Shown here: piece after piece, positions 12,808-27,452 of the stretch | Layout: every line of letters starts with the position of its first letter | How positions within the stretch are numbered: the stretch's first letter is position 1 | Translations under genes and position numbers: made by a program | The notes under the pieces: model-generated | What the model saw: only the letters and a program-made list of their open reading frames with translations | Told to the model about the DNA's origin: nothing | The model's database searches: none | DNA from: a virus | Direction: 5' to 3' (one strand) | IMG/VR virus record: IMGVR_UViG_3300019124_000089 | Span: 1 to 44,767 of that record | Length of the DNA: 44,767 bases

Positions 12808-12981
12808 ATGGGGATTCTGAAAAAGGCGATTGAATACGAGAAGCTGACGGAGCACCTCGCGTCGCTGCGGCCGGGCGAGGAGCAGACAATCATCATCGAC
12901 GATCGAGCGTACGTCGTGAGCCCCGCGGAAGTGGATGACATCGAGCGGGTGCCGGTTGGTCGAGTGTTCATAGGGGATTGA
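12808..12981 (+). CDS. Small hypothetical protein
   Basis: A 57-residue protein starting at ATG 12808 with a strong AGGAGGGTACC site. Probably a helix followed by a small beta sheet (EQTIIIDDRAYVVSPAEVDD). Its stop overlaps a possible TTG start of the methyltransferase. No family recognised. Confidence 0.78.
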   Translation: MGILKKAIEYEKLTEHLASLRPGEEQTIIIDDRAYVVSPAEVDDIERVPVGRVFIGD

Positions 12982-12998
12982 AGAGAGGAGTGGGGCGG

Positions 12999-14696
12999 GT
13001 GAAGCAACTGCTTCGGGAATTGATCGTCGATAACTTCGCCGGCGGCGGAGGTGCCAGCACCGGCATTGAGCTCGCGATAGGGCGCAGCGTGGATATAGCA
13101 ATCAACCACGATCCGGATGCGATCGCAATGCACAAGGCGAACCACCCACATACGGAGCATTATTGCGAATCGGTATGGGAAGTCGACCCTAGAAAAGTAA
13201 CGCGCGGGCAGCCGGTGGCACTTTGCTGGCTCTCCCCGGACTGCAAGCATTTCAGCAAGGCGAAGGGCGGCAAACCGAAGGAGAAAGGCATTCGCGGCCT
13301 TGCATGGGTCGCTGTGCGTTGGGCGGCGACGGTGCGACCACGGGTGATCATGCTCGAAAACGTCGAGGAGTTCAAGACCTGGGGGCCGCTACTTAAAGAC
13401 GGCATGCCGGATCCGGACAAGAAAGGCCGAACGTTCCAAGCATTTGTAAACGCCCTGAAGAGGCTAGGATACGAGGTGGACTGGCGTGAGCTGCGCGCGT
13501 GCGACTATGGTGCACCGACGATCCGTAAGCGGTTCTTCCTGATCGCCCGGTGCGACGGACGTCCGATCGTCTGGCCGGAGCCGACGCACGGCGATCCGAA
13601 CAGCCCGGAGGTGAAGAGGAAGAAGTTGAAGCCTTGGGTACCGGCGTCGGAGATCATCGATTGGTCGATTGAATGTCCGAGTATTTTCGAGAGGAGACGG
13701 CCGCTGGCGGAGAATACGAAGCGACGTATTGCCCGGGGCATTATGAAATTCGTCATCAACAACCCTAGGCCGTTCATTGCACGGATCGGGCAGGTTGGGT
13801 TCGGGGGAGATCGATTGCAGTATCCGATTGACCAACCGCTGACGACGATCACGACGAAGGCAGAGCACCTGCTGATCACTCCGCACATAACGAAGTTTCG
13901 TGGAGGCGCAACAGGACATGCAGTAGACGAACCGCTCCACACCATCACGAGCGGCGCGGGCAGCGCGAGGCCGGCAGGTGCGGCACACGCGATGGGTTTG
14001 GTCTCGGCAACTCTTGTGCAAACAGGCTACGGTGAGCGGAAGGGACAGCAACCGCGAGCAATCGATATAGAGAAGCCGCTAGGAACGGTCGTCGCTGGCG
14101 GGCAGAAGCATGCGGTTGTCGCCGCCTTCCTCGCGCAGTACCACAGCGAGACTGCCGCCCACGACGCGCGCGGACAGTCGCTAGACCGGCCGATCCTTAC
14201 ACTTGACACTTCGAATCGATACGGACTCGTCACGAGTCACCTCGTCAAGATGAAAGGCACGAACATCGGACAGTCAGTCGCAGATCCGTTGCAGACCATC
14301 ACGGCGGGCGGTCAGCACTTCGGCGAGGTAAGGACGTTCCTGATGAAATATTACGGCACCGGAGAGGGGCAGGAACTTACGGAGCCACTGCACACGATCC
14401 CGACGAAGGATCGTTTCGGACTTGTCACAGTGCACGGCCAAGATTACGCGATCGTCGATATCGGTATGCGGATGCTTGAGCCGCACGAGCTCTTTGCGGC
14501 GCAGGGCTTTCCGAAAGAGTACATCATCGATCGGGACGCGGACGGAAAGCATTATCCCAAGTCGGCGCAGGTCGCGCGCTGCGGAAACTCGGTCCCACCG
14601 CCGTTTGCTGAGCACTTGGTCCGCGCGAACCTTCCGGAGCTATGCAAAAACGTCCCATACGGTGGGCAACATCAGCTGGAACTGCAGCTTGTATAG
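12999..14696 (+). CDS. C5-cytosine DNA methyltransferase
   Basis: Phage Dcm-type enzyme of 565 residues that would methylate cytosine in phage DNA to evade restriction. Motif I is DNFAGGGGASTG, motif IV SPDCKHFSKAKGG (catalytic Cys, with DC replacing the usual PC), motif VI ENVEEF, motif VIII RKRFFLIA, and motifs IX-X GFPKEYIID and CGNSVPPPFAEHL. Between VIII and IX lie about six degenerate repeats of roughly 45 residues centred on PL-T-I. I prefer GTG 12999, which has a GAGGAG site. TTG 12978 is a longer alternative. No cognate restriction enzyme is nearby. Confidence 0.95.
   Translation: MKQLLRELIVDNFAGGGGASTGIELAIGRSVDIAINHDPDAIAMHKANHPHTEHYCESVWEVDPRKVTRGQPVALCWLSPDCKHFSKAKGGKPKEKGIRGLAWVAVRWAATVRPRVIMLENVEEFKTWGPLLKDGMPDPDKKGRTFQAFVNALKRLGYEVDWRELRACDYGAPTIRKRFFLIARCDGRPIVWPEPTHGDPNSPEVKRKKLKPWVPASEIIDWSIECPSIFERRRPLAENTKRRIARGIMKFVINNPRPFIARIGQVGFGGDRLQYPIDQPLTTITTKAEHLLITPHITKFRGGATGHAVDEPLHTITSGAGSARPAGAAHAMGLVSATLVQTGYGERKGQQPRAIDIEKPLGTVVAGGQKHAVVAAFLAQYHSETAAHDARGQSLDRPILTLDTSNRYGLVTSHLVKMKGTNIGQSVADPLQTITAGGQHFGEVRTFLMKYYGTGEGQELTEPLHTIPTKDRFGLVTVHGQDYAIVDIGMRMLEPHELFAAQGFPKEYIIDRDADGKHYPKSAQVARCGNSVPPPFAEHLVRANLPELCKNVPYGGQHQLELQLV
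13815..14450 (+). repeat. Degenerate protein-level repeats inside the methyltransferase
   Basis: The segment encodes about six units with the core (D/E)(K/P)PL-T-(I/V), seen as QPLTTITTK, EPLHTITSG, KPLGTVVAG, RPILTLDTS, DPLQTITAG and EPLHTIPTK. Each is followed by a short H/G-rich stretch and a strand. The region occupies the place of the target recognition domain, so it may set DNA specificity. Confidence 0.7.
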
Positions 14697-21637: not shown

Positions 21638-23548
21638 TTGGCTGACTTCGAATTAGAAGATGAATTTCCATTCCAGACGAACGACCGGACCGACAAACGC
21701 CGCTACGACATCATGTCGGAAGAGGAGATCCGAGAAGCCGACAAGTTCATCGACTGGTTCCGCAGCTCGTGGCAGGACAAGGAGAACCGCGGCCTCTTCG
21801 AAAAATGGGAATCGATCGACCTTTACTGGGAAGGCGAGGCGAACCCGCCGGAGAGCGACACGGATCCTGCGAGCAACACGAACATCGTGAACGCCAACGT
21901 CGAGGGGCAAGTGGCGTACCTGGTCGAACAGAACATCGCGATCGAGGCAAAGCCGCGCGGTCCGAGCGACAAGCCGTGGCGCGACCGAGCCGTGGCGGTC
22001 ATGGATTTCGTGAAGGAGCAGAACAAGATGCGGCGGAAGCTCGACGTGCACGAACGCCGGCGCAAGAAGTTCGGCACGGGCATCTTCCGAGTACTGTTCG
22101 ATCCGGACTGTCTGGACGGCTGGGGGCTGCCGGTTATCGAGCCCTGCAATCCGGCGTACGTTTTCTTCGATCCGACGATTACGGACGTATATCGGATTCA
22201 GGAAGGGCGCTTCGCCGGCGAGTGGGTGAACCGTTCCATCAACTACGCCCGCGAGAAATACGGCGAGGAGCTGGCGGCCGCGATCGAGCCGGGCTACCAT
22301 CCGGCGGAGTCCGAGTTCATCTTCGGTGAAGACGAGGGCGAGACGGACGAAATCAGCCGCGACAGCTACCTGCACATGTTCGTATTTACGCGCTACAAGG
22401 ACGAGGACGGCGAGCTGCGGCTCCGCCTCGTTGAGATGTCCGGCTGCGGCGTCATCCTGCGCGATACGAAGAAGGAAGAGGAGGAGGCAGGCGAGCGGAT
22501 TTTCCCGGATGAGCGCTATCCGTACTTCGTGACGCCGGACATGTACCGCGAGGGCACGGTGTGGGCGAAAGGCGGCGCGGAGCTGCTGATCCCGACTCAG
22601 GATCTCATCGATGATCTGGACGATCAGACCCGGTATAACGCACGGCTGACGGGTAACCCGCAGCGGAAGGTGTCAATCGACTCCGGGATTGATCCCGACA
22701 AATTGACGAACGAGCCGGGGCTTGCTATTCCTACCGCCGACATGAACGGCATCGAATGGATGAACCCGCCGACGATGCCGGAATACATCTTCCGTAGACG
22801 CGATACGGCACTCGGGATTGAGCGGCAGATCGTGAGCCGCTTCGGCGATCAGCAGACCGGCGTGAAATCGCAGGGCGTGGATACGGCGACGGAGGCGCTC
22901 TCGCTCCAACAGGGCGCAAATAGCGGCGTCAACCATTCGAAGATCCTGCTCGAGGAGACGCTCGCCGAGGTGTTCACGTATTGCCTCGAGCTCTGCATGA
23001 TGCATTGGACTGAGGAGCAGTTCTTTGAGCTGACGGAGAAGCCCGGGGAATACGACTTCTTCCGGCCGAGCGATCTGATGAACATCCCGCGGCTGATTCC
23101 GGCCTCCGAATCGTACCAGCAGACGTTCGCGTCGCAGTTTCCGGAAGCTGAGGGCGTGCCGCAGTTCATGCCGCTCAGAAACGAGAAAGGCCAAACGATG
23201 ACCCAGAAGATTGCGCTCAACGTCACGGTGACCGTCGGCGCCGGTATGCCGCAGAACAAAGCGTTCGTGTACACGGTCATCAAGGAGGCACTGGCTTCGA
23301 AGCTTGTAACGCCGCAGGAAGGGCGCAGGCTGCTTAAGGAATACGTAGGACTGCCGGTTGAGGATGAGCCGCCAATGGACCGCAACCAAGTTCAGGAGAT
23401 GGTGCAGGCCTCAATTCAGCAAGCGCTCGCTGCTCTTCAGGGAGGAATGCCGGCGGGCATGCCTGGTACCGCGCCTCCTAACCCGCAGATTGGCGGTATG
23501 ACAGCGGCAGGAGCACCGGCGGCTCCGCAGATCGGGGGTGTTGCGTGA
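21638..23548 (+). CDS. Portal protein, P22-like
   Basis: A 636-residue portal that would form the dodecameric ring through which DNA is packaged. The N-terminal region (FIDWFRSSWQDKENRGLFEK, then DTDPASNTNIVNANVEGQVA) matches the P22-type portals of short-tailed phages, and the stem/wing continues through IPTQDLIDDLDDQTRYNARL. The C-terminus is Met/Gly/Pro-rich. Starts at TTG 21638 after GGAGGTGTAA. Its type is a main reason to infer podovirus morphology. Confidence 0.9.
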   Translation: MADFELEDEFPFQTNDRTDKRRYDIMSEEEIREADKFIDWFRSSWQDKENRGLFEKWESIDLYWEGEANPPESDTDPASNTNIVNANVEGQVAYLVEQNIAIEAKPRGPSDKPWRDRAVAVMDFVKEQNKMRRKLDVHERRRKKFGTGIFRVLFDPDCLDGWGLPVIEPCNPAYVFFDPTITDVYRIQEGRFAGEWVNRSINYAREKYGEELAAAIEPGYHPAESEFIFGEDEGETDEISRDSYLHMFVFTRYKDEDGELRLRLVEMSGCGVILRDTKKEEEEAGERIFPDERYPYFVTPDMYREGTVWAKGGAELLIPTQDLIDDLDDQTRYNARLTGNPQRKVSIDSGIDPDKLTNEPGLAIPTADMNGIEWMNPPTMPEYIFRRRDTALGIERQIVSRFGDQQTGVKSQGVDTATEALSLQQGANSGVNHSKILLEETLAEVFTYCLELCMMHWTEEQFFELTEKPGEYDFFRPSDLMNIPRLIPASESYQQTFASQFPEAEGVPQFMPLRNEKGQTMTQKIALNVTVTVGAGMPQNKAFVYTVIKEALASKLVTPQEGRRLLKEYVGLPVEDEPPMDRNQVQEMVQASIQQALAALQGGMPAGMPGTAPPNPQIGGMTAAGAPAAPQIGGVA

Positions 23549-23808: not shown

Positions 23809-24203
23809 CCCAACACATGGGCACGACGATGTGTTGCTCACACACGTTCACGCCGGCGGACATACGGCCGCCGCTGATGAACCAGCGCCAAGCGCTCGGA
23901 ACGAATGACCCGAAGCTGTACGGCGGAAATGCGAAGTGGTTTGCCCGGGCGATGTGCCCAGATTGCGAGCGGCCGCGGCTGCTGTGGCTTATGCCACGGC
24001 CCCGCGGGTACAAGGTGCTGACGATCAGTGCGCTGGACACGCCAGAAGCGCTGGACGACGACGGGCAGCCACCGATCGATGTGGAGACGGCGGACGTGAA
24101 GCAGCTGCGGGCATATCTGAAAGCGAGAAACGTGTCGTTCTTCAACGGTGCGTCGGAAGAACAATTACGGGAGCTGGCGCGCGGGACGCTCGCGCTCCTA
24201 TAG
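23805..24203 (+). CDS. HeH/SAP-like protein with zinc knuckle
   Basis: A 132-residue protein. A CPDCERPR half-ribbon lies in the first half together with an earlier CCSH. The C-terminal 35 residues (VKQLRAYLKARNVSFFNGAS, then EEQLRELARG) form a helix-extended-loop-helix (HeH/SAP-like) fold that often binds DNA. The ATG at 23805 is preferred because it overlaps the previous stop and has an AGGAGGAG site. Role in head assembly unknown. Confidence 0.72.
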   Translation: MTQHMGTTMCCSHTFTPADIRPPLMNQRQALGTNDPKLYGGNAKWFARAMCPDCERPRLLWLMPRPRGYKVLTISALDTPEALDDDGQPPIDVETADVKQLRAYLKARNVSFFNGASEEQLRELARGTLALL

Positions 24204-24213
24204 GAGGATTTGA

Positions 24214-24780
24214 GTGAAGAAACCAACGGTCATATTCGATTTTGACGGCGTCATTCATAGCTACACGAGCGGTTGGAAGGGCGCGGACGTGATACCGGAC
24301 GGCCCGGTTCAGGGGATAGCGGAGGCGATCGCTGAAATCCGCCAGCATTACACGGTGGTGGTCGTATCGACGCGCTGTTACCAGGATGGTGGCATTGACG
24401 CGATCCGTGAGTGGTTAGGCAAGCATGGAATCGAGGTCGACGACGTTACGGGCGAGAAGCCACCTGCAATCATTCAGATCGACGATCGATCGGTCACCTT
24501 CGACGGCGTTCCCGCGAACCTACTGAAGACGATCAACGGTTTTCAACCGTGGAATAAGAAGCCAGTTCGTGAGGCGAATCAAACTATCGAGAACAACTTC
24601 CGCTACCACGCGCCGAAGCCGGGCCAACCGGAGAAGTACACCGCGATCCGTGAGAAGGCGAAGGAGCTGGCGTATCTGATCGATGAGCTCGCGCCGAAGT
24701 CGCGGGAGCAGTCGCTCGCGTACACGAAGCTCGAAGAAGCCGTCATGTGGGCGAACGCGGCGATCGCGCGGAACGAATGA
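24214..24780 (+). CDS. HAD phosphatase fused to an Acb2-like nucleotide sponge domain
   Basis: A 188-residue two-domain protein. Residues 1-112 are a HAD hydrolase: D9 and D11 (FDFDGV), S/T52-53 (VVSTR), K82, and D90-D91 (IIQIDDR). This HAD form with HSYTSGWKGADVIPDGPV is common in phages. Residues 125-188 match the Acb2/Tad1 hairpin family: FRYHAPKPGQPEKY, IREKAKELA, SREQSLAYTKLEE, VMWANAAIARN. Acb2 sequesters cyclic oligonucleotides made by host CBASS. The fusion suggests the phosphatase acts on the captured or a related nucleotide, which is inference. Starts at GTG 24214 after AGGAGG. Confidence 0.83.
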   Translation: MKKPTVIFDFDGVIHSYTSGWKGADVIPDGPVQGIAEAIAEIRQHYTVVVVSTRCYQDGGIDAIREWLGKHGIEVDDVTGEKPPAIIQIDDRSVTFDGVPANLLKTINGFQPWNKKPVREANQTIENNFRYHAPKPGQPEKYTAIREKAKELAYLIDELAPKSREQSLAYTKLEEAVMWANAAIARNE

Positions 24781-24968
24781 AGCGCCTGTTCTGCATCTTC
24801 GGCCATGAAGACCGCCGTCACTTCGTACTCGAGCCACTCACTCCCGATCCTGAAGAACCGACAGTGATGCACAGTGTGCTTCAGGAGACGCGAACATGCT
24901 CACGTTGTGGTCGAGTAAAGACGACCAAGGAACTCATACCGCTGCAATACATCATCAGCGACGATTAA
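24777..24968 (+). CDS. Small zinc-binding protein
   Basis: A 63-residue protein (MKRLFCIFGHEDRRHFVLEP onward) with CIFGH and CSRCGR pairs, consistent with a single zinc site. The ATG at 24777 overlaps the HAD-Acb2 stop (ATGA), so it is translationally coupled to it and could act with it. It ends just before a strong terminator. Confidence 0.72.
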   Translation: MKRLFCIFGHEDRRHFVLEPLTPDPEEPTVMHSVLQETRTCSRCGRVKTTKELIPLQYIISDD

Positions 24969-24972
24969 CCCT

Positions 24973-24997
24973 GCACCCACCTCCGTGGGTGCTTTTT
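24973..24997 (+). terminator. Rho-independent terminator
   Basis: GCACCCAC-CTCC-GTGGGTGC is a perfect 8-bp stem with a 4-base loop, followed by TTTTTAT. It ends the packaging/portal operon and separates it from the scaffold-capsid genes. Confidence 0.92.
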
Positions 24998-26558: not shown

Positions 26559-27452
26559 ATGAAATTGACACGCGATAACTTCCAAGAACTGCTGACGCCG
26601 GTCCACGTGAAGCTGATCGGCCTCGGCTACAAAGACAAGCCGAAGCAATACCCGAAGATCGTCAAGGTGGGTAAAATGCGGAAGAAGACGGAGACGTTCC
26701 CGCATCTCGGCGGCTTCGGCATGTGGCGTTCCAACACTGAAGGTAACACGATCAACGAAGACGAAATGAGTGAAGGCCCGGTAGCAACGTTCGAGGCCCG
26801 CCGCTTCGACAACGGCTACACAGTGACTTGGGAGCTCACGAAAGACGACCTGTACGGCGTTATGAACGGCAGAGGCGTGAAGGGCGACGCCCGCGGCCTC
26901 GGTCAAGGTCTGCGCCGGCTCGAGGAGACGGAGGTGGCCGCCATCATCAACAACGGCTTCTCGAACACGGGCTACGACGGCGTGGCACTCTTTTCGAACA
27001 GCCACCCGCTCGAGGATTCTGCCGACGTTCTTGACAACTTGATCACCGGCGCGCTGACGCCTGGAAACGTCAAGGACGGCATGACGCTCATGCGGAACCA
27101 AGTCGACGGCGCCGGCAACAAAATTCAGGCGGTTGCTCGCCAGCTGATCACGGGCCCGGATCTCGAGTTCACTGCGAAGGAAATCGTGAAGTCGCAAAAC
27201 CAAGCGTTTGAGCAGTCCAACACGAAGAACGTCATTGAGGGGCTCGAGCCGGTCGTCATGGATTACATCGAAGGCGACACGTGGGTGCTGCGCGATCCGT
27301 CGTTCGAGAACCTCGCCTTCCTCGTTCGCGAGTCGGAGTGGTTCGATTCGCAGCAGCTGCCGAAGACGGTCGACTTCTTCGTATTCGGCTTCAAGCGGTT
27401 CGACGTCGGCTACTACGACGTACGCGGCCTCGTCGGCAGCCAAGGAGCGTGA
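26559..27452 (+). CDS. Major capsid protein (gpT-like)
   Basis: A 297-residue protein resembling the Mu gpT-type major head subunits. The segment FFVFGFKRFDVGYYDVRGLV at the C-terminus and DGVALFSNSHPLED in the middle are typical. It has a strong AAGGAGGGTAC ribosome site, in keeping with the most abundant virion protein. Probably HK97-fold. Assignment rests on family pattern and on position after scaffold and decoration genes. Confidence 0.87.
   Translation: MKLTRDNFQELLTPVHVKLIGLGYKDKPKQYPKIVKVGKMRKKTETFPHLGGFGMWRSNTEGNTINEDEMSEGPVATFEARRFDNGYTVTWELTKDDLYGVMNGRGVKGDARGLGQGLRRLEETEVAAIINNGFSNTGYDGVALFSNSHPLEDSADVLDNLITGALTPGNVKDGMTLMRNQVDGAGNKIQAVARQLITGPDLEFTAKEIVKSQNQAFEQSNTKNVIEGLEPVVMDYIEGDTWVLRDPSFENLAFLVRESEWFDSQQLPKTVDFFVFGFKRFDVGYYDVRGLVGSQGA

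Follow-up and report, generated by a model that had tools for sequence, protein, structure and literature searches.

The gene and its place in the head gene cluster

The window analysed here is the whole of IMG/VR virus record IMGVR_UViG_3300019124_000089, a stretch of 44,767 nucleotides from a virus. At positions 24214-24780 of the + strand, it contains a single ORF with a GTG start that encodes a protein of 188 residues, in which a HAD domain is followed by a domain of the Acb2 type of cyclic-nucleotide sponges (Table 1). On its 5' side the gene is flanked by genes for a large terminase subunit and an SU10-type portal protein, and on its 3' side by a putative scaffold gene and the gene for the major head protein. 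An earlier reading of this DNA, made from the letters alone (the sequence-only reading), had placed the gene in a late packaging operon, and its location between the portal and the scaffold/major head genes is confirmed. The same reading had coupled the gene to a zinc-binding miniprotein. The coupling holds, as the start of the downstream ORF overlaps the stop of the fusion gene (ATGA at 24777), while zinc binding remains putative: the 63-aa product possesses C-x3-H and CxxC motifs that may bind zinc, and its sequence matches no Pfam family above the cut-off. The window also encodes a DnaD-like helicase loader, which together with the identity of the closest relatives suggests that this tailed phage probably infects a Bacillota host. 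Elsewhere in the window, a 572-aa DNA methyltransferase fusion-like protein (12978-14696) matches several PHROG methyltransferase families.

Table 1. Features of the fusion gene and its surroundings (window coordinates)
Feature	Position	Strand	Evidence or remark
Portal protein (SU10-type), upstream	21638..23548	+	places the fusion gene in the head/packaging cluster
Shine-Dalgarno-like GGAGG	24203..24208	+	sequence; 6 nt ahead of the GTG start
N-terminal cap-less HAD phosphatase domain, residues 1-116	24214..24561	+	D9, D11, S52/T53, K82, D90/D91
Junction/linker, residues ~117-124 (KPVREANQ)	24562..24587	+	HAD-side anchor PWNK; without in-frame start codon
C-terminal Acb2-type sponge domain, residues 119-188	24568..24777	+	short N helix and two-helix hairpin
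Putative zinc miniprotein, 63 aa, downstream of the fusion	24777..24968	+	start overlaps fusion stop (ATGA)
Intrinsic-terminator-like hairpin and T-run, closes transcript	24973..24992	+	strong; 3' of the miniprotein
Major head protein, downstream	26559..27452	+	

In a sibling phage (L082), whose portal protein is 72% identical, the same slot is occupied by two unrelated short ORFs (L082:8610-8963), and neither Acb2 nor HAD is found anywhere in that record. The fusion gene is an accessory gene, and the slot that it occupies in the head gene cluster is variable.

The two halves of the protein

In the HAD alignment, D9, D11, R54, K82, D90 and D91 are the same in all 50 relatives and S52 varies little, and all the HAD residues named in the sequence-only reading (D9, D11, S52/T53, K82 and D90-D91) are found at the positions that it gave. 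HAD motifs I-IV (DxD, S/T, K and DD) and the Rossmann core are all present according to the alignment, the model and Foldseek. Residues 1-110 are modelled by AlphaFold with very high confidence, and the PDB neighbours of this half are the cap-less HADs GmhB, phage AfhF, clostridial Pnkp1 and T4 Pnkp. Given the invariant motif residues, the confident model and these neighbours, the N-terminal domain is likely to be an active phosphomonoesterase. Among the profiles, those of phrog_23773 (4e-17) and phrog_1238 (2.6e-10) match the HAD half; Pfam HAD_SAK_2 scores 21.4 bits against the N-terminal domain, which is under its cut-off of 27.5, and no match to HAD_PNKP is listed for the fusion protein among the Pfam profiles.

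These matches bear on a reading in which the protein combines a sponge with an unrelated metabolic or nucleic-acid-modification phosphatase that serves to produce or salvage a sugar phosphate or a dNMP, the fusion being a chance read-through of accessory neighbours that have no joint role. The nearest solved phage relative, AfhF, is a D-arabinose 1,5-diphosphate phosphatase (9iqw), phrog_1238 carries the label phosphoheptose isomerase, the structural matches include GmhB and a deoxyribonucleotidase-like protein, and relatives of the HAD are fused to dUTPase, all of which would fit such a phosphatase. However, the few window proteins scanned included no recognisable partner gene for hypermodification, and the HAD lies next to three different families of sponges more frequently than expected from uniform placement (see below). 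We regard this reading as unlikely, though credible enough to be kept in view.

HAD domains related to that of the fusion are also joined to an ADP-ribosylglycohydrolase (PF03747, 2.5e-34; L066:5992-7173), which is of interest given NAD-based defence, and to a dUTPase (6.6e-11; L030:5995-6771), while a TOTE-type primase is followed by the HAD in L181, an XkdF protease is followed by the HAD in L020 and the HAD is followed by LPD28 in L031. With so many different fusions, the HAD is a promiscuous phage module, and several of the proteins joined to it act on nucleotides, nucleic acids or ADP-ribose.

The C-terminal motifs from which an Acb2-like sponge had been proposed are present in the ORF and match PF24729 (Acb2/Tad1 hairpin) over residues 131-186 (E 9e-24, 83.9 bits against a cut-off of 27) and phrog_1454 over residues 120-188 (2e-29). 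A profile built from 57 relatives finds 9ptq, "Acb2 homolog 43" (3e-7), Tad1 (8e-4) and T4 Vs.4 (0.028). The AlphaFold model of the whole 188-aa protein has a mean pLDDT of 92.6, and in its C-terminal part a short helix (residues 123-128) precedes an antiparallel hairpin of two helices (139-159 and 164-185). When the whole model was searched against the PDB, mostly HADs were returned, the sponge part being small, and the sponge domain was folded (pLDDT 93.8) and searched separately. Its top PDB match by Foldseek is T4 Acb2 (Vs.4) with cGAMP (7uq2, prob 0.99, TM 0.69), and Tad1 is found further down among the relevant matches. The Acb2 hairpin, on which the proposed sponge depended, is thus predicted for the C-terminal part, and the proposal of a HAD enzyme that carries an Acb2-type sponge domain is supported by both profile matches and predicted structure.

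The Y8A mutant of T4 Acb2 is binding-deficient and the T68M mutant has lowered affinity (PMC12657230). Both residues are retained in the fusion protein, where T4 Y8 aligns with Y131 and T4 T68 aligns with T171; the key tyrosine is thus conserved, one of the residue types (Tyr and Lys) that the sequence-only reading had suggested comparing with Acb2 crystal structures. Based on sequence and model, the C-terminal domain is predicted to bind cyclic nucleotides and to oligomerise. Alternatively, the domain may be an oligomerisation or sensor module for the HAD, whose ligand gates or positions the enzyme instead of being withheld from immunity. Additions at the N-terminus are tolerated in this family, as Tad1 also has a domain N-terminal to its hairpin and the Acb2 of another phage (L002) has a different N-terminal extension. 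The fused domain, however, keeps a normal sponge sequence, to which most stand-alone relatives are ~65-87% identical, as is expected if sponge binding is selected, and a sensor role appears to us distinctly improbable. The sequence-only reading had also suggested that the fusion may recruit the enzyme to a nucleotide-bound state, towards which the results are neutral. In Paenibacillus larvae phages, the Acb2 domain of the fusion is matched, with up to 85% identity, by proteins annotated as "phosphomannomutase" (e.g., KT361654 43450-43647), which are likely to be misannotated sponges.

The junction and the rarity of the fusion

Both halves are widespread as stand-alone phage genes. Stand-alone HADs of the fusion's family end at "PWNK(R)*" and stand-alone Acb2 proteins begin a few residues before "IENNF", while across the junction the window protein reads PWNKKPVREANQTIENNF, so that two whole genes are joined by ~8 linker residues. 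The linker, which is the sole low-confidence stretch of the model (pLDDT ~62), joins immediately ahead of the helix running up to the ligand-binding Tyr. Neither an in-frame start codon nor a Shine-Dalgarno sequence for a separate Acb2 start is found at the junction. GC3 rises from 0.69 in the HAD part to 0.82 in the Acb2 part, whose value resembles that of the neighbouring genes, and this difference weakly hints that the two parts are of different origins.

The number of phages that carry the fusion, a check suggested with the sequence-only reading, came to the window protein only (n=1) across the collections searched. Scans with short peptide patterns, which could miss very diverged fusions, turned up no further example in 2.9 million IMG/VR contigs, INPHARED, GTDB contigs and 398 sampled genomes, and none was found among the best 80 IMG/VR relatives, another 80 Acb2 loci and 62 GTDB loci. 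In INPHARED, 186 records match one half of the protein and none matches 80% of the query. The literature searched, whose coverage excluded subscription papers, contains no report of an Acb2-HAD fusion.

With one contig and no second example, an assembly or sequencing artefact that merged two separate genes has to be weighed, as indels can yield isolated fusions. Both frames, however, are intact up to the junction; besides the missing start signals for Acb2, two indels within ~24 nt would be required to restore a stop for the HAD and a start for Acb2, and an ATGA-coupled ORF comes next. We therefore consider an artefact very improbable.

HAD genes beside sponge genes and the proposed role of the fusion

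Four of the 52 records with closer stand-alone HADs contain PF24729, and three contain the Tad2-like PF11195. In L003, a Tad1 gene (L003:4536-5255; 1.9e-40 to solved Tad1) ends 12 bp before the stand-alone HAD gene, and the pair is flanked by a minor capsid gene and the scaffold gene. An Acb2 gene is found 13 bp downstream of the stand-alone HAD in L002 and 289 bp downstream in L027, where a Lar-like restriction-alleviation gene lies between the two, and a Tad2 gene follows the HAD after 838 bp in L038. In the records that have both, four of seven sponges are thus within ~1 kb of the HAD, where uniform placement expects 0.6 (P ~0.001, a value that ignores the clustering of accessory genes). 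In the set of 132 HAD-neighbour proteins, PF24729 is the most frequent Pfam family, with only three members; the Tad2 gene of L038 was added to this set by hand, and its single count is not independent. The link is occasional and not obligate, since a HAD of the fusion's family is present in none of 81 Acb2-positive stand-alone records (searched with positive controls) and a replication in 29 additional records, mostly with HADs that are more distant, yielded no sponge. Searched from the Tad1 side, the HAD adjoins one of 34 Tad1 loci, that of L003. The recurrence of the HAD next to Tad1, Acb2 and Tad2 genes in unrelated phages strengthens a counter-defence reading, although such proximity can reflect accessory genes that share slots.

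Two further loci were noted in these surveys. L002 encodes a second long Acb2 (L002:6362-6928), a 189-aa protein with the hairpin at its C-terminal end and an N-terminal part of ~120 aa, for which a search for a wider family returned the L002 protein only. A Clostridia MAG contig (L220:514-3680) encodes a short Acb2-like protein and, ~2.5 kb from it, a divergent HAD.

Based on these results, we propose, as a reading that is somewhat probable, that the fusion is a bifunctional anti-defence protein that pairs a cyclic-nucleotide sponge with a phosphomonoesterase and that arose by the joining of two adjacent genes. Known Acb2 is a hexamer, and the C-terminal domain would assemble with other copies of itself and bind the cyclic oligonucleotides of CBASS-like immunity, so that the effectors would not be switched on. 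The N-terminal HAD would be a phosphomonoesterase that most likely acts on the phosphate of a nucleotide or a nucleic-acid end, in the manner of polynucleotide-kinase-phosphatases, and it may counter the same defence, or the damage caused by it, through an activity of its own. The fusion may go back to two small anti-defence genes that lay side by side in the variable slot of the head cluster and became joined end to end. Several points count against this proposal: the fusion is a single example, the link between HAD and sponge genes is occasional and may reflect shared accessory slots, and the HAD, which is fused to several other partners, may be a general-purpose module.

A closer cooperation of the halves can also be envisaged, in which the Acb2 oligomer concentrates the immune nucleotide, or a linear or phosphorylated form of it, at HAD sites that destroy it, so that a sponge that works stoichiometrically would become a catalytic scavenger; elsewhere, the same HAD would act in trans beside Tad1, Acb2 and Tad2. 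The physical fusion is compatible with this, as the short linker ahead of the helix leading to the Tyr holds the HAD near the pocket, and a common signal-clearance role is conceivable for a HAD that also neighbours Tad1 and Tad2, whose ligands differ. However, HAD phosphatases act on phosphomonoesters, and to our knowledge the intact cyclic signals of CBASS and Thoeris (cyclic di- and trinucleotides and gcADPR) carry none, which makes their dephosphorylation or hydrolysis by the HAD chemically doubtful. Moreover, known sponges sequester their ligands and do not degrade them (review). Dephosphorylation or hydrolysis of the captured signal by the HAD, as suggested in the sequence-only reading, is thus unsupported, no result having tied the HAD to such a substrate, and we judge destruction of the signal by the fusion protein improbable. 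If it were true, one protein would both buffer and clear the alarm signal.

The collections searched contain no other gene in which a phosphatase is combined with a sponge, and this architecture suggests a counter-defence protein that unites two functions. Sponges capture their signals stoichiometrically, and in this natural sponge-phosphatase fusion the Acb2 hairpin is used as a module within a larger phage protein. Together with the HAD genes beside Tad1, Acb2 and Tad2 elsewhere, the fusion makes this uncharacterised HAD family a candidate counter-signalling partner, and the protein itself is a compact, testable construct for the role of the HAD in counter-signalling.

Compared with known systems, the HAD half shares the Rossmann core and the DxD, S/T, K and DD motifs with the cap-less HADs, i.e., the 3'-phosphatase of T4 Pnkp, clostridial Pnkp1, GmhB and AfhF (9iqw), whereas it forms a phage subfamily of its own with a DFDGVIHSY signature and has no kinase or ligase partner. 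The sponge half resembles Acb2 of T4 (Vs.4) and of Pseudomonas phage in its short N-terminal helix and long helical hairpin, belongs to the same Pfam family and keeps both residues known from T4 mutants; it differs in sitting behind a HAD enzyme and, relative to T4 Acb2, in a shorter hairpin loop. With Tad1 it has in common the hairpin motif SRE..LALT..EEA.MW and the presence of an extra N-terminal domain, which in Tad1 is a small beta sheet and in the fusion is a HAD, and the fusion protein lacks the beta-sheet domain expected of a Tad1. The fusion protein shows no Pfam or PHROG match to the Acb1 nuclease domain. As with the Acb1 and Acb2 pair of T4, one phage here has both an enzyme and a sponge that would counter nucleotide signals, but T4 Acb1 is a nuclease encoded by a separate gene, whereas here the enzyme is a HAD within the sponge polypeptide.
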